Origin: Fibrobacter sp.
Lineage (GTDB): Bacteria; Fibrobacterota; Fibrobacteria; Fibrobacterales; Fibrobacteraceae
Assembly: GCA_016285835.1 (NCBI GenBank)
Contig: JAEERM010000006.1
Location: forward strand, 1-64,000
DNA: 64,000 nucleotides
Direction: 5' to 3'
A program made the translations under genes and the position numbers. A model generated the notes under the pieces. The model did not search any database. It worked only from the letters and a program-made list of their open reading frames with translations, and was not told the DNA's origin. Of this stretch, positions 47,354-58,092 are shown piece after piece (the first letter of the stretch is position 1; the number at the start of each line of letters is the position of its first letter).

Positions 47354-47411
47354 GATTTGAGAAACTTATATTCTTGAAAGATTTTAAAACACAAACCAAA
47401 GGATGCTAATC

Positions 47412-50400
47412 ATGATGAAGCAAACTATGAAGGTCGCCGCTATTGCCGCAATGGGCATGGCCGTGGCCGTAATGGCGCAGCCGAAGCAGCCGAAGACGGT
47501 CGTCTACAAGTTCTTCGACGAACAGTATCGTCAGGGCGGGTTCGACTATTCTTACGGTGGCTCGAGCAAGGGCGTCACGATTACCAAGGACGGCGGTTAC
47601 AAGTCCAAGGCTGCCCTGAACATCAAGCTGGACCCGAAGGAATATTCCGGTGCCTCCATCTGCTTGTACAACGAGTTCTTCGACTTGAACAAGTTCATGC
47701 TCGATTCCAAGGTCGAGTTCATGATCAAGGGCAAGAACGGCGGCGAGAACGTCAAGATTGGCCTCCTCGACGAAGAAGTCAGCGACGGCAAGAAGACGCA
47801 GGTCGTGCTCCCGATGAACAAGTACATCCAGGGTGGTGCTGTGACGAAGGACTGGAAGAAGGTTTCCATCCCTCTCGTGGACTTCCCGGACCGTGGCCTT
47901 TACTGGGACAACACCCGCAAGTCTGAATTCCCGGCCCGCATCGACTGGGACAAGATTGCAGAAATCCGCTTCTCCATCGACAAGAGCGGTGCCTCCGAAT
48001 TTGAAATCTGGGTAGACAACATTGAAATCGTGAAGGGCAACAAGAAGGCCCCGCCGAAGAAGAAGGTTGTTTATTGGGATGAAAACAACGACGTTATCGA
48101 TGGCCCGAAGAACCCCGAAAAGCTCGACGGCAAGGCCAAGAAACTCGCTACGTTCTACGACAACCAGCTCAAGGGCTTCAGCTATAGCTACGGTGGTCTC
48201 ACTGCCCAGCGCGAAGCCAAGTCCAAGACTCAGGGCAACCCGAACGTGCTTGCTATGTACATCGACAACAACGACTGGTCCGGCGTGACCTACTCGCTGG
48301 GCGAAGGCAAGTTCATCGACCTTTCCAAGGTCCGCAACAAGGGCGGTCTCTACTTCTGGATCAAGGGTAAGCTCGGCGGCGAAAAGCTGTACGTGGGTAT
48401 CCTCGACAACCAGGGCAACGACGTGAAGAGCCAGACCAAGGTCGGCCTCAACGACTGGATCAAGGTCAGCAAGGATTGGCAGCTCGTCAAGATTCCTCTG
48501 AAGCGTTTCATGGACAAGGGCAAGGCTTGGGATGCTAACAAGCAGGCCGAAGTCGCCAAGGACATGAAGTGGAACAAGATTCAGGAAATCCGCTTCTCTG
48601 TGGGCAAGGGCGAAAACCAGGGCGAACCGGGCAAGCCGGCTCCTGTGACCGTCTTCGTCGACCAGATCACCTTCACCGAAAATATCGACTGGGTTGACCC
48701 GGACCTCAAGTGGGACAACTTCAAGTCCACTGCTAAGGATCTCGTGATTTCTGACTTCGAAGGCAAGTACGGTAGCGAAGTTTGGGAACCGGCATTCGGT
48801 CCGAAGTCCCAGCTCAAGTTCAATATTGAAAACTGCCCCGAATTCAAGAGCAACTGCTTGAACATCGAACACTACCTCCTCGCCGACTGGGTCGACGTCG
48901 TGCTCGACATGAACAAGCGCGGCCGTCCGGCTGCTGACCGCGACTGGACCAAGCACTGGGGCATCATGTTCGACGTGTACTCCGAAAAGGCTTGGCAGTC
49001 CATCACCGTGCAGGTGCAGGATGCCGGCAACGAAATCTTCGTTTCCAACGTCGGTGCTCCGAAGGGCAAGACCACTCTGCTCGTGCCGTTCCGCACCTTC
49101 GGCAAGTTCCCGTACTACCAGCCGCCTAACGCTGTCGAAAACGGCATCTTCGACCTGAAGGGTGTCGTTGCTCTCGACTTCAAGCCGAGTGGCGAAGGTA
49201 CTGCCGGTGGCTTCAAGATTGACAACATCAGGCTCACCAACCAGCGCGAAGTCAAGGCCAAGGAACGTCCGGCCGTCATCAAGGTGGCCATCAAGGGCTC
49301 TAGCGACGTGCTCAACCCGGAAATCTCCGGCGGCCTCTTCGGCATCAACGCCGCCCTCTGGGATGGCGACATGCTCGACAACAAGAGCTTCAAGGTTCAG
49401 ACTCGCGACTTCGTGAAGCGCATCAACCACGGTATCGTCCGTTATCCGGGTGGTCTCCGTGCTGATGACGACCACTGGAAGGAAATCCTCGACAACCACG
49501 ACTGGATGGTCGACACCGACGAATTCCTCGAATGGTTGAAGAAGACTGGCTCCAACGCTATGTTCACCGTGAACTTCGGTTCCGGCACCGAACAGGAAGC
49601 TGCTGCTTGGGTGAAGCACACCAACATCGACAAGAAGGCTGGCATCCTCTACTGGGAAATCGGTAACGAAGTCTATGGTAACTGGCACCCGTACTACGAA
49701 AAGTATGGTAAGGACGGCGGTACCATCTATGGTAAGCGCGCCCGTAAGTTCATCGAAGCTATGAAGAAAGTCGACCCGACCATCAAGGTGGCTGTGCTCG
49801 GCGTTCTCGAAGGCGACTGGAACGAAAAGGTGCTCAAGGAAACCGGTGACATCGCTGACGGTCTTATCGTCCACCATTATCCGCAGCACTTCGGCGAAGA
49901 AAACGATTTCGCTCTCCTCTCTGCCCCGCAGACTCTCACCGCTATCTACGAACGCCTGCACAAGGTCGTGGACAAGTGGACTGCTCACTTCAACAAGGAC
50001 AAGAAGATTGAGCTCTGGCTCACCGAATGGAACTCTGTCGACTTCAACCCGGGCCCGCAGACTCTCTCTGTCGAGAACGGCTTGTTCGTCGCCGACTACC
50101 TCGGTATGCTCGCCACCGAAAACGTGGATAACGCCCAGTACTGGGATATCCACAACGACATCACTCCGGAAGGCGGTGACTACGGTTACCTGACCCGTTC
50201 CGGTGAAAACTGCATGAACTGCCCGCGTCCGAGCTACTGGGCCTTCCAGATGGCTTCTGACGCTCTCCGCGGCAAGCTCATGAAGACGACGATTACCGGT
50301 GACGAAGATGCCCTCCTCACTGCCTACTACACTGTGAAGGGCAAGAAGAAGCAGCTGTTGCTCGTGAACAAGAGCCCCTACAGCGACTTCGACATCAAGC

Positions 50401-50570
50401 TCGACATCGACGGCTTCAAGGGTAAGGCCAAGGTCCAGACTCTGGACAAGACCTCCGAAAAGCTGAAGGAAGGCTGGGCCAACGACCCGTCCAAGAAGTC
50501 GAAGACTGTCGATATCTCCAAGGGTATCAAGGTTGGCAAGCGTACGCTGACCCTCATCACGATCGACTAA
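47412..50570 (+). CDS. GH51 endoglucanase with tandem N-terminal carbohydrate-binding domains (Cel51A/EGF-like)
   Basis: 1052 residues (about 118 kDa) from ATG 47412, eight bases after AAAGGA; ATG 47403 overlaps that site. The signal peptide ends VAVMA. Three CBM11/CBM30-like jelly-roll modules follow (about 30-210, 250-430 and 440-620), each ending in a ...WVDNIEIV-, FVDQITF- or KIDNIRL-type strand. The GH51 barrel has acid/base Glu753 in EIGNEVYGNW and nucleophile Glu872 in WLTEWNS, 119 residues apart as usual. Size and layout match the cellulose-binding endoglucanase F (Cel51A) known from F. succinogenes. There is no sorting domain. Codon use is extremely biased, indicating very high expression. 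Confidence 0.92.
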   Translation: MMKQTMKVAAIAAMGMAVAVMAQPKQPKTVVYKFFDEQYRQGGFDYSYGGSSKGVTITKDGGYKSKAALNIKLDPKEYSGASICLYNEFFDLNKFMLDSKVEFMIKGKNGGENVKIGLLDEEVSDGKKTQVVLPMNKYIQGGAVTKDWKKVSIPLVDFPDRGLYWDNTRKSEFPARIDWDKIAEIRFSIDKSGASEFEIWVDNIEIVKGNKKAPPKKKVVYWDENNDVIDGPKNPEKLDGKAKKLATFYDNQLKGFSYSYGGLTAQREAKSKTQGNPNVLAMYIDNNDWSGVTYSLGEGKFIDLSKVRNKGGLYFWIKGKLGGEKLYVGILDNQGNDVKSQTKVGLNDWIKVSKDWQLVKIPLKRFMDKGKAWDANKQAEVAKDMKWNKIQEIRFSVGKGENQGEPGKPAPVTVFVDQITFTENIDWVDPDLKWDNFKSTAKDLVISDFEGKYGSEVWEPAFGPKSQLKFNIENCPEFKSNCLNIEHYLLADWVDVVLDMNKRGRPAADRDWTKHWGIMFDVYSEKAWQSITVQVQDAGNEIFVSNVGAPKGKTTLLVPFRTFGKFPYYQPPNAVENGIFDLKGVVALDFKPSGEGTAGGFKIDNIRLTNQREVKAKERPAVIKVAIKGSSDVLNPEISGGLFGINAALWDGDMLDNKSFKVQTRDFVKRINHGIVRYPGGLRADDDHWKEILDNHDWMVDTDEFLEWLKKTGSNAMFTVNFGSGTEQEAAAWVKHTNIDKKAGILYWEIGNEVYGNWHPYYEKYGKDGGTIYGKRARKFIEAMKKVDPTIKVAVLGVLEGDWNEKVLKETGDIADGLIVHHYPQHFGEENDFALLSAPQTLTAIYERLHKVVDKWTAHFNKDKKIELWLTEWNSVDFNPGPQTLSVENGLFVADYLGMLATENVDNAQYWDIHNDITPEGGDYGYLTRSGENCMNCPRPSYWAFQMASDALRGKLMKTTITGDEDALLTAYYTVKGKKKQLLLVNKSPYSDFDIKLDIDGFKGKAKVQTLDKTSEKLKEGWANDPSKKSKTVDISKGIKVGKRTLTLITID

Positions 50571-54104: not shown

Positions 54105-54476
54105 TTGACAAAGGTATCGAGAACATACTGGCTGGTACTCCTGCTCGCCTGCGGGATTTTTGCCGTAGACGTGTTCGTGCTGCCCGACGTGACGCCGGAA
54201 CTCAAGTCCAGCGCATCCGAGTTCTTCAATAACGAGTGCAAGGGGTGTCACCGGTGGGCGCGCAAGTTCGCGGCCCCGCCTATGCGCGATAACGTGCAGC
54301 ACTATGCTAGCGACCCCGCCGCGATGGTCGAATACCTTAAACACCCGACTCCGCAGCATCCGGACGAATGGCCCGCGATGGAAATTACCCCGCTGACGGA
54401 GGAGCAGGCGAAGATGATGACCGCCTGGCTTTTGTATATCCTCAAGAACCCGGACGATCCGGGGAGGCCAAAATAG
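54105..54476 (+). CDS. Membrane-anchored mono-heme cytochrome c
   Basis: 123 residues starting with TTG at 54105, eight bases after AAGGGA. One N-terminal transmembrane segment (about 9-25) is followed by a small cytochrome c domain with heme motif CKGCH (45-49) and a likely distal Met92 in AMEITPLT. It is first gene of a five-gene cluster (54105-58092) and resembles the mono-heme subunit (ActE-like) of Alternative Complex III or a small Qrc-type cytochrome. It faces the periplasm. Confidence 0.82.
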   Translation: MTKVSRTYWLVLLLACGIFAVDVFVLPDVTPELKSSASEFFNNECKGCHRWARKFAAPPMRDNVQHYASDPAAMVEYLKHPTPQHPDEWPAMEITPLTEEQAKMMTAWLLYILKNPDDPGRPK

Positions 54477-54486
54477 GGATGGCGCC

Positions 54487-55011
54487 ATGAAGTGGTCCCT
54501 TGTTGCCCTCGTTGCGCTGCTGTGCGCCTTTTTCCTTGCGGATTTGCTGATGAACCGCGTCGCGGAACCGACGCGTCGCGGTGACGGTTCCGCCGTACCT
54601 TTTATGCACGCGATGCACGGGGATTCCATCGGGCTCTCGTGCAGCGCCTGCCATACGGGCGCTTATGCCACTGCCAAGGCTTATCTGCCCTCCAAGGCGG
54701 AATGTATGGACTGCCACCGGTTGCCGCTTACCGAGGGCGCCGGTATCGAGGCGCTTGATTCGGCCTTGGCGAAGGCCCCTGAATATCCTTGGTCACGGAA
54801 GTCCTCATTGCCCGAACACGTGGTGTTCCACCACGGTGTCCACCATAGCGCCGGTGTGGCCTGTGCAGATTGCCACGGCACCGGCTATGGGGCGGACGTT
54901 TACGGGGGAGAGCGCTTTGACATGCGGACCTGCTTGGACTGCCACCGCGGAAAGACTTTCAAGGACAAGAATTTCAAGGCTGCGGTGTATTGCGCGGCGT
55001 GTCATCGGTAG
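54487..55011 (+). CDS. Membrane-anchored penta-heme cytochrome c (ActA/QrcA-like)
   Basis: 174 residues. One N-terminal hydrophobic segment (4-21) acts as signal or anchor. Five CxxCH motifs follow: 52-56, 73-77, 126-130, 149-153 and 169-173, with several extra His (HAMH, FHHGVHH) that can serve as distal ligands, as in cytochrome c7/c3-type folds. Five hemes, small size and gene order match ActA of Alternative Complex III and relate it to QrcA. It starts ten bases after the mono-heme gene and five bases before the iron-sulfur gene. Confidence 0.88.
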   Translation: MKWSLVALVALLCAFFLADLLMNRVAEPTRRGDGSAVPFMHAMHGDSIGLSCSACHTGAYATAKAYLPSKAECMDCHRLPLTEGAGIEALDSALAKAPEYPWSRKSSLPEHVVFHHGVHHSAGVACADCHGTGYGADVYGGERFDMRTCLDCHRGKTFKDKNFKAAVYCAACHR

Positions 55012-55016
55012 GGATT

Positions 55017-55892
55017 ATGGGAATGGATCGGCGTGAATTTATCAAGTGGTGTTCCTTGCTGGCCGTGGGCTCGATGCTCGGCGGTTGCCGCAAGCTGCCC
55101 TTTATGGGCGATGCCGCGAAGAAGGACCTGCCCTCGCTCAAGATGTTCGAGGCCGAGGTCCGGCGCGCCATGTCGAAACCTTCGCACAGGATGGAACTGG
55201 TGCGCGTCCCGATGCCCGGCCGCCTGAAAACTCTGGGTGCGTCGTTAGAAAACCGATTTGGGATGGCTATTGACCTTGATGCCTGCGACGGATGCGGCAA
55301 GTGCATTCTGGCTTGCATCCAAGAAAACAACATCCCGCTAGTGACCGAAGACGAGGCCGCGAAGGGACGGTTCATGCACTGGATAGAGATGCGCGGCGGA
55401 GTGCCGTTCATGTGTGCCCATTGCGGGAATGCCCCTTGTGAACGGGCTTGCCCGACGGGGGCGGCGAACCATACGCCCGACGGCTTGAGTGCCATGATGT
55501 ACAAGCGCTGCACCGGGAGCCGTTACTGTGGCGCGAACTGCCCGGAGCATGCGCGCAAGTTCAATTTTAACGATGCTGTGCAGCAGGGACTTTCGCTGAA
55601 GTTCAACGACAAGGTACCCGTTCGCAGTAAGGGCGTCATGGAAAAATGTTCGCTCTGCTTGCACAGGTTGCAAGACGACCGCTTGGAAGTCAAGACTGCC
55701 GGCGGTGTCTGGCGTGGCCGTGGCGTGAATACGGCTTGTGCCGAGGCCTGCCCCAAGAAAGCTATCGTATTTGGCAACTGGCTCGACCCAGATTCTCCAC
55801 TCGTGAAGGTGGCGCGCCGCCGCGACTTGTACGCTCCGGCAGACCTCGCTGGCCTTGATCCCTCAATTGTCTACATGATGGGGGGTAAGTAG
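55017..55892 (+). CDS. Tat-exported iron-sulfur lipoprotein (ActB C-terminal/QrcC-like)
   Basis: 291 residues from ATG 55017 (AGGG upstream; ATG 55023 is an alternative). A twin-arginine signal MDRREFIKW runs into a lipobox-like LGGC (Cys24). Four cluster motifs follow: C90-93-96-100, C133-136-141-145, C165-171-175 and C211-214-241-245. The third has Ser instead of the second Cys (CTGSRYCGANCPE), the same kind of change as in ActB/QrcC-type proteins that hold a [3Fe-4S] cluster. It lacks the large molybdopterin-like domain of ActB. Its stop overlaps the NrfD gene GTG (TAGTG). Confidence 0.88.
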   Translation: MGMDRREFIKWCSLLAVGSMLGGCRKLPFMGDAAKKDLPSLKMFEAEVRRAMSKPSHRMELVRVPMPGRLKTLGASLENRFGMAIDLDACDGCGKCILACIQENNIPLVTEDEAAKGRFMHWIEMRGGVPFMCAHCGNAPCERACPTGAANHTPDGLSAMMYKRCTGSRYCGANCPEHARKFNFNDAVQQGLSLKFNDKVPVRSKGVMEKCSLCLHRLQDDRLEVKTAGGVWRGRGVNTACAEACPKKAIVFGNWLDPDSPLVKVARRRDLYAPADLAGLDPSIVYMMGGK

Positions 55893-57649
55893 TGGTCCGC
55901 ATCCTCTTTATCGTCTTCCTCTGCCTGCTTGTCCCGGGGCTTGCGTCCATGGGATATTCGCTGTGGCAGGGGCCCGCGGCATGGTCCGTGGACACGGGAG
56001 TGTTCTGGGGGCTGCCCATAAGCCTGTTCGTGTTCTGGATTGGCCTTGCCCACGCGGGAACGCTGATTTCGGCGATTTTCCTCGTTCTCGATGTCAAGAT
56101 GGAACGCCGCACATCCATTCTCGCCGAACTTGCGACGCTGTGCGCTCTTGTCGTGGCAGTCATCTTCCCGTTGATGCACCTCGGCGTCATCCAGAATTTT
56201 TACATGGTCGCCCCGTACATGGAATCCCGCGGGAGCATGGCCAACGTATGCTCCCCGCTGGTATGGGATTTCTGCTGCATCTTGGCTTACGGGCTCTTAT
56301 CCGTTGTCTATCTAGTAGTCCATGTGCTTGCGGACAAGTCGGCTGTAGCGGCCTCGATTCACCGTCCCCTGGCCTGGCTCCTTTTCCCCATGGTTCTCTG
56401 GGTGCATACGATTGTGAGCCTTGATTTTGCGGCAACGTTTGTCCCGGCGTGGCGCGGTGCATTTTTCCCCATTTACTTTATCGTAGGGGCCGTGTTCTCG
56501 GGGCTTGCGATGGTGAACATCATGCTCTGTGCCGAGGGCTACCGGATGCGCCAACTGGAAAAACTCATGCTGGTGGGTTCGTGGTTCTTGGGCGCGTTCC
56601 TGTTGTGGGACTTTGCTTTGAAGGGCAACTTGAGCGTCACGGTGCTTGTATTCGCGGTCTTGCTCCCGCAACTCATGTTCGTTTCTGCCGTTCGCGAGTC
56701 GACGTTGGGCCGTGTTTTGGTCTCGTCTTCTATCATTGTCGGGTTGCTCCTTGAACGCGTTTTCCTCGTCTTCCCGTCGGGCGTGGTGGGGTTCGGTTGG
56801 GTCGACCTAGGGTTGATTTGTTTTGGCTTCGGCCTGTTCGGTGTGATTTTCTTGGTGGCGCGTCTCAAGCTTTCCCGCGTCATTGAGGGCGAAGAAGTCC
56901 TGATGGGCGAGGTGGAAGAAACCGTGCCGAAACGCCCTGCGACGGGCCGGTTCTCCTACTTTGCTCCGCTGACAACTCCCGAATTCAGAATGTTGCGGTT
57001 CCCGCTCTTGCTGGGGATTATCGCATGTACATTGTTCTTGGTTTGGGTCGTCGGTTGCTTGGAAGAAAATGGTATCGCATTCTCGGATGCGAATCTTGTT
57101 CCGCTGACATGCCCCATCATTACGACCGTGGCCGGAATCGTACTTTGCCTGCGTCCGCTGGTGATGCACATTGGCAAAGTCGGCGGTGTCGTGATGGTTG
57201 CGTTGGCAGCCCTCTTGGGCGTTTTAGCTGGAATGGTTTACGGGGGCGTAACGTCGGTTCCGTCGGGTGCTGTGGTCAGCAGTACGGGGGATATGCTCGA
57301 TGTTGGAACTTTGCCCGATTCTACATCTACGTTGGATTCTGTGGCCATAATCCGCACGAAGGCTGTGTTTGAGGCGCGTTGCGCCGGGTGCCATGGTGCC
57401 GATGGACGCCTGAACGAGAAGTTTGTCCGTGAATACTATCCGGTCCCACAGAACTTGGACATTTCTCGCATGGATGCCCTCGGGGAAGATTCTTTGGTGA
57501 ATGTTATCCTAAATGGCAGGACGAACATGAATCCCTATGCGGGGCGAATCAGCCCGCAGATGGCCCGTGGCTTGGTCCGTTACATGCGCCTGCTTGCGGA
57601 AACTCCCGCAGCAGACAATGCTGCACGGAACGAGGGAGGTGACGAATGA
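55892..57649 (+). CDS. NrfD/ActC-like quinone-binding membrane protein fused to cytochrome c
   Basis: 585 residues from GTG 55892, overlapping the upstream stop by one base. The first 345 residues are an NrfD-type membrane domain with FWIGLAHAGTLISAIFL and FPLMHLG, the blocks shared by ActC/QrcD subunits that bind menaquinol. After a charged loop there are about three more helices (365-460) and then a periplasmic cytochrome c domain with CAGCH (497-501) and a likely distal Met546. ActC and QrcD normally have no heme domain, so this looks like a fusion with a cytochrome subunit. It overlaps the next gene by four bases. Confidence 0.87.
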   Translation: MVRILFIVFLCLLVPGLASMGYSLWQGPAAWSVDTGVFWGLPISLFVFWIGLAHAGTLISAIFLVLDVKMERRTSILAELATLCALVVAVIFPLMHLGVIQNFYMVAPYMESRGSMANVCSPLVWDFCCILAYGLLSVVYLVVHVLADKSAVAASIHRPLAWLLFPMVLWVHTIVSLDFAATFVPAWRGAFFPIYFIVGAVFSGLAMVNIMLCAEGYRMRQLEKLMLVGSWFLGAFLLWDFALKGNLSVTVLVFAVLLPQLMFVSAVRESTLGRVLVSSSIIVGLLLERVFLVFPSGVVGFGWVDLGLICFGFGLFGVIFLVARLKLSRVIEGEEVLMGEVEETVPKRPATGRFSYFAPLTTPEFRMLRFPLLLGIIACTLFLVWVVGCLEENGIAFSDANLVPLTCPIITTVAGIVLCLRPLVMHIGKVGGVVMVALAALLGVLAGMVYGGVTSVPSGAVVSSTGDMLDVGTLPDSTSTLDSVAIIRTKAVFEARCAGCHGADGRLNEKFVREYYPVPQNLDISRMDALGEDSLVNVILNGRTNMNPYAGRISPQMARGLVRYMRLLAETPAADNAARNEGGDE

Positions 57650-58092
57650 CTCCGTTGATGTCTTCCCTTGCGTGTGTGATGGCCTTGGCCCAAGCGTTTT
57701 TCCTGTGGCGCGGAAAAATGCACATTCTTAAAGAAGGCCTGTTGCTGTTCGGGTTCTTCTGCATATCGTGTGTGTTTACTTTGCTCGTTGGTTCACCGGA
57801 CGACCCGCAGATTGAACATTATCCGCTTCGTATGCTTGCTCTGTGTCTGTGTTTCTCGACCACGTCGCTGCCGCGCTATCGCAGACGTTACCTGGTGATG
57901 GCGCAAGCTTTCTGGCTTTGGGTGGAACTATTCGGCGGCATTGCGCTTGCTTACCGCGGTATCGAATTTGCGTGGGCCCGCTCGCTGGCTATATTCCTGC
58001 TATGCTGTAGCAGTACGCTGCTTTCCAGAATTTCGAAAGAAATGGAATTCTGCCTGATGGTATTCTGGATTGCCATCTGGATATTGTTCTAA
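57646..58092 (+). CDS. Small polytopic membrane protein of the cytochrome cluster
   Basis: 148 residues, about five transmembrane helices, no cofactor motif. The ATG overlaps the preceding stop (ATGA), so it is translationally coupled to the NrfD-cytochrome gene and is probably an accessory membrane subunit or assembly factor. I do not recognise the family; it does not resemble ActD or ActF closely. The cluster ends here with no clear terminator. Confidence 0.7.
   Translation: MTPLMSSLACVMALAQAFFLWRGKMHILKEGLLLFGFFCISCVFTLLVGSPDDPQIEHYPLRMLALCLCFSTTSLPRYRRRYLVMAQAFWLWVELFGGIALAYRGIEFAWARSLAIFLLCCSSTLLSRISKEMEFCLMVFWIAIWILF

Follow-up and report, generated by a model that had tools for sequence, protein, structure and literature searches.

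Alternative complex III (ACIII) and quinol modules lacking a molybdopterin subunit are already known, and both serve here as points of comparison. ACIII is described as having six subunits (ActA to ActF) that are conserved from species to species (PMC5928083), and the complexes solved from R. marinus (6f0k), F. johnsoniae (6btm), Chloroflexus (8k9e), and Roseiflexus (6lod) are our reference structures. Qrc (QrcABCD), the menaquinone reductase of sulfate reducers, resembles the locus studied here in having periplasmic-side multiheme cytochrome c, Fe-S, and NrfD modules, but differs from it in having a molybdopterin-like subunit, QrcB, and an aspartate at the key quinone position. The NrfBCD, DsrJOP, and Nhc modules likewise combine a periplasmic cytochrome c with Fe-S and NrfD proteins and have no molybdopterin subunit; however, they belong to other sequence families, and since the Fibrobacter state was reached by reduction of an ACIII, the likeness is one of functional analogy only. 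The genomes of Fibrobacteraceae, for their part, have been said to lack major electron-transport components or a respiratory chain (PMC4704652), and the open-access part of the literature, to which our search was confined, yielded no description of ACIII in Fibrobacter or of ACIII without ActB1. We analysed a window of 64,000 nucleotides (contig G000:C7) from a Fibrobacter MAG of 3.5 Mb that is 86% complete, in which five adjoining genes had been annotated as a reduced ACIII-like complex.

Gene content and kinship with ACIII

The five genes are tightly packed (Table 1), with 10-11 bases between the first three and overlaps of 1-4 bases between the last three. The products given to them in the first-pass annotation are confirmed by the open reading frames, the heme motifs, the Tat motif, and the NrfD and cytochrome c domains, and so is the count of seven hemes (1 + 5 + 1 motifs). 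Scans with Pfam and NCBIfam returned a cytochrome c, a multiheme cytochrome c7, a four-cluster Fe-S protein, an NrfD protein with a cytochrome c domain, and a six-helix protein without match in either collection. The open reading frame of the Fe-S protein is listed from a TTG at 54990 and runs into the preceding gene; the position of the Tat signal (DRREFIK) places the start at the ATG at 55023. Its lipobox cysteine (Cys33) is present in 41/41 relatives, and its 15 cluster cysteines are conserved in 41/41 relatives and in 9/9 ActB proteins, which implies the same set of clusters as in ActB. The gene set, its order, and its motifs are repeated in about 60 Fibrobacter genomes and in three further genera of Fibrobacteraceae, so the cluster is not a product of chance. 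A locus 99% identical to that of the window comes from an "uncultured Fibrobacter sp.". The closest solved structures to cytM are of the c551/c555 type; the gene is kept in Fibrobacter and in genera g5 and g10, and none was found in the loci of genus g6. Upstream in the window, positions 47403-50570 encode a secreted protein of 1055 aa; by eye, it has carbohydrate-binding-like modules in several copies and, in its C-terminal half, a likeness to glycoside hydrolases.

Table 1. The five genes of the cluster, with positions in the window.
Product	Position	Strand	Motif or domain
cytM, membrane-anchored monoheme cytochrome c, 123 aa	54105..54476	+	PF00034 (E 4.7e-5)
ActA homologue, pentaheme cytochrome c with N-terminal TM helix, 174 aa	54487..55011	+	5 CxxCH
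Fe-S protein (ActB2), Tat-exported lipoprotein, predicted 3 [4Fe-4S] + 1 [3Fe-4S]	~55023..55892	+	
ActC-cytochrome c fusion	55892..57649	+	NrfD PF03916, cytochrome c PF13442
Six-helix membrane protein, 148 aa	57646..58092	+	no known family

Three of the proteins have clear homologues in ACIII. First, the ActA homologue matches the R. marinus subunit (6f0k_A, phmmer E 1.1e-18) and those of the three other ACIII structures. Second, the Fe-S protein matches residues 795-1008 of 6f0k_B (E 1.2e-47) and aligns to positions 790-1004 of a local ActB HMM (E 1.4e-69); judged by these alignments, it corresponds to the B2 domain at the C-terminal end of ActB and lacks B1. Third, the fusion protein matches 6f0k_C (phmmer E 4.2e-32) and begins with an ActC part of 10 TM helices (residues 1-345), which a spacer of three further TM helices (363-451) connects to an ActE-like cytochrome c domain (about 485-575). 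Its AlphaFold model (mean pLDDT 72.9) shows the same 10 + 3 helices followed by the cytochrome domain. This model retrieves 6btm_C with Foldseek (E 6e-11), and its structure comparison (VIA) gives Z 34 to four ActC chains, 27.6 to ActF, and 17.6 to PsrC. Profile comparison of the NrfD part points in the same direction (E 1.3e-44 for ActC vs 2.6e-4 for ActF), and on both grounds the NrfD protein is an ActC, as had been proposed. The fused cytochrome domain has weak matches to ActE (E 8e-4 with a local ActE, 0.012 with 6lod_E), which suggest a refinement of the initial reading, otherwise largely right: ActE would not be missing but fused to ActC. The homology of three proteins to four solved ACIII complexes, with its structural support, indicates that the cluster derives from ACIII rather than from Qrc.

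Compared with ACIII, the cluster has in common the pentaheme ActA, the four-cluster ActB2 domain, the quinol site and proton gate of ActC, and probably an ActE-like cytochrome c. It differs in 1) the lack of ActB1 and ActD, and of ActF in the window's genome; 2) the fusion of the ActE-like domain to ActC through the 3-TM spacer; 3) the Tat and lipobox signal that the Fe-S protein carries of its own; 4) the addition of the six-helix subunit and of an extra monoheme cytochrome; and 5) the lack of an oxidase gene next to it.

Subunits lost and residues retained

The absence of the molybdopterin-like protein, first noted in the window, extends to the whole family: a 780-aa probe for the ActB1 domain found it in 0/111 Fibrobacteraceae genomes, and the same probe recovered all of the canonical ACIII loci in other families (9/9), down to 26% identity. 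Within Fibrobacterota, the ActC homologues of families f3, f4, f5, and f7 adjoin a full ActB (965-1280 aa); where these loci are better resolved, ActD, ActE, ActF, and oxidase-like genes are present as well. ActD had also been reported missing, and a search of 168 genomes of the phylum with PF11821 found it in 13, all outside Fibrobacteraceae, and in none of the family. The same holds for ActF in the window's genome (86% complete), where PF03916 has a single match and the one NrfD protein is the ActC. In R. marinus ACIII, B1 has no cofactor and the wire leads from quinol through FeS1 and ActA to ActE (PMC5928083), so the lost parts lie off the electron path. The ligands of FeS2-4, which form a second wire in ACIII, are all retained here despite the loss of B1. 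Because the proposed coupling elements of ACIII (ActD Glu122 and ActF) are absent, proton pumping is uncertain, and any energy coupling would depend on ActC, which might translocate protons alone. A natural complex of this kind would directly test why the cofactor-free molybdopterin-like domain and the second NrfD subunit persist in ACIII.

The functional residues of ActC, whose identities were taken from PMC8076601 and PMC5928083, are retained in the fused, long-type proteins of Fibrobacter and the other genera. The quinol residues H96, S121, D126, and D178, which correspond to ActC His139, Ser164, Asp169, and Asp253 and are nearly invariant in nine ActC proteins, are invariant in 44/44 long-type proteins, and the equivalents of the gate residues Glu394 and Arg395 are also retained in 44/44. 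The half-channel residues that were checked are kept, except for Arg119 (R. marinus numbering), which is replaced by a hydrophobic residue.

The six-helix protein is modelled by AlphaFold with confidence (pLDDT 87.4, pTM 0.81, six helices) and adjoins ActC in the long loci that could be read through. We considered it as a remnant of ActF or ActC, for which we obtained no support: profile comparisons were null, Foldseek gave no match below E 2, and the structure comparison (VIA) with PsrC, with Z 8.9 over 142 residues, falls in the range of unrelated helical bundles.

Proposed electron path, direction of flow, and partners

We give roughly two chances in three to the reading of the cluster as a minimal menaquinol:cytochrome c oxidoreductase, i.e., a reduced ACIII. 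The reading draws on homology, on gene order, on the conserved cofactor and quinol ligands, on the co-occurrence of the cluster with a cytochrome c synthase and a soluble cytochrome, and on the disappearance of all these together in one clade. The gene products would assemble into one complex. In it, the ActC part would oxidise menaquinol at its periplasmic site, and the lipid-anchored Fe-S protein would take up the electrons on its [3Fe-4S] cluster. From there they could cross the five hemes of ActA and reach the fused ActE-like domain, cytM, or both; the next carrier would be a separate soluble monoheme cytochrome, described below, and the last a periplasmic partner. A prenyltransferase of the UbiA family, the type needed for menaquinone, is encoded in 80/80 Fibrobacter genomes, which makes prenylquinone synthesis plausible.

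The search for an acceptor, whose outcome speaks against this reading, covered the same number of Fibrobacter genomes. Heme-copper oxidases or NO reductases were found in 0/80, CCP/MauG di-heme peroxidases in 0/80, and NrfA had no match above the cut-off in the 80 genomes; four weak NrfA matches lie in the loci of the ActA homologue and are not genuine NrfA. Among multiheme cytochromes of the PF14522 type, the ActA homologue was the only one above the cut-off, and inspection of the genes around the soluble cytochrome in several genomes of the long type revealed no recognisable reductase. In other genera of the family, the loci L106 (genome G044) and L107 (G146) encode a heme-copper oxidase (PF00115) and gave no match to the ActC fusion.

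The Fibrobacter lineage is fermentative and forms succinate. This background and the lack of a detected oxidising acceptor (CCP/MauG, NrfA, or heme-copper oxidase in the 80 genomes) would both fit the main rival explanation, in which electrons flow in reverse, as in a Qrc-like menaquinone reductase: from a periplasmic donor through the soluble cytochrome and the complex to menaquinone, and then to the fumarate reductase that makes succinate. The QrcA and QrcC HMMs do match the ActA and Fe-S proteins, but with scores far under the cut-offs (50.7 vs 180 bits for QrcA, 146.9 vs 400 for QrcC), and bona fide ActB matches the QrcC model too, so that this match does not discriminate. In addition, the quinone residue is a histidine in 44/44 proteins, as in ActC, whereas QrcD has Asp120 (PMC8076601). 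We thus regard reverse flow as unlikely, and of the twofold resemblance to ACIII and Qrc suggested by the first-pass annotation, only the ACIII side stands, on the matches to ActC, ActB2, and ActA.

A second rival takes the cluster as an NrfBCD-type feeder of one periplasmic reductase, having converged on the donor module of nitrite reductase. Its modules (a pentaheme cytochrome c, an Fe-S protein, an NrfD protein, and no Mo subunit) do parallel those of E. coli NrfBCD, as a functional analogy, yet sequence and fold are those of ActC, ActB2, and ActA rather than of NrfD, NrfC, and NrfB, the NrfC HMM scores 73 bits against a cut-off of 377, and, as said, the NrfA that such a module would serve in E. 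coli is above the cut-off in 0/80 genomes. We consider the feeder slightly less probable than reverse flow, and the oxidation of menaquinol by a reduced ACIII is the reading that we retain.

Long and short forms across the genus

The locus takes its long form in 60 of the 80 Fibrobacter genomes and a short form in 17; the remaining three, with neither, are 62-71% complete. The short loci contain the ActC part (410-419 aa, without cytochrome) and, in all 17, the six-helix protein next to it, with no cytochrome or Fe-S gene adjoining the ActC part. This difference extends to the rest of the cytochrome c system. The first-pass annotation had made its reading depend on cytochrome c maturation genes, and these are present: the window's genome encodes a synthase of the fused ResB-CcsA type (712 aa, L052:5578-7716) that tracks the long-type cluster genus-wide, in 58/60 long genomes (the two others are 85% and 71% complete) and 0/17 short ones. 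All long genomes (60/60) encode cytochromes of PF13442, and no short one does (0/17). Nearly every long genome has two of them, the fusion and a conserved monoheme cytochrome whose gene lies apart from the cluster (G000:C89:26492 in the window's genome, L093:8175-8744); the latter is absent from all short-type genomes and is a possible soluble partner of the complex.

The short proteins form a single clade (support 100/100) that has a long stem and branches from within the long-form proteins, which indicates that the redox parts were lost in one event; the 17 short genomes are not independent, their co-loss of cluster and cytochromes counts as one evolutionary event, and Fisher p-values for it overstate independence. 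The equivalents of ActC His97, Thr100, His139, Tyr176, His247, Glu394, and Arg395, all invariant in the 44/44 proteins of the long form and other genera, are lost in 17/17 members of this clade, the Glu-Arg pair of the gate having become Lys-Cys in 16/17. Despite this, dN/dS in short pairs is low (0.07-0.09 for ActC, 0.05-0.14 for the six-helix protein), a sign of purifying selection, which suggests that the two proteins are still selected for something else.

The loss of all redox parts in this sister clade, like that of ActB1, ActD, and ActF, could be taken to mean that the cluster is degenerating and no longer serves respiration in the window's species. We consider this very improbable: the ligand residues are strictly conserved across the genus and three other genera, the dN/dS of the fused protein is 0.08-0.18, and a dedicated cytochrome c synthase is retained. 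A broader proposal, to which we give even odds, is that the long form is the smallest functional ACIII, with ActB1, ActD, and ActF dispensable for quinol-cytochrome c transfer, and that ActC and its small partner were re-purposed in the short clade as a non-redox pair after the loss of the cytochrome c system. Neither an ActE-ActC-fused reduced ACIII, nor the six-helix subunit, nor the redox-less form was found in the literature that is openly accessible.

If our reading is correct, a branch dedicated to quinol-cytochrome c transfer is retained in most Fibrobacter genomes, which would correct the view of Fibrobacteraceae as devoid of a respiratory chain (PMC4704652) and would be relevant to electron disposal by fibre digesters in the rumen and hindgut. 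The system offers built-in controls, with full-complex relatives in the phylum and a clade without the complex in the genus.

The short loci are L033-L037 and L069-L080 (e.g., L033:6105-7804, with the redox-less ActC and the six-helix protein). In L033, a GGDEF/EAL protein and a PF07670 (Gate) membrane protein adjoin the pair, and genes of equal size are found in all five mapped loci. A scan of contigs with the fused protein gave matches confined to close relatives. The MAG Kiritimatiellae RGIG6720 from sheep rumen contains two diverged versions of the Fibrobacter locus (L057, L059), which probably reflect binning contamination.
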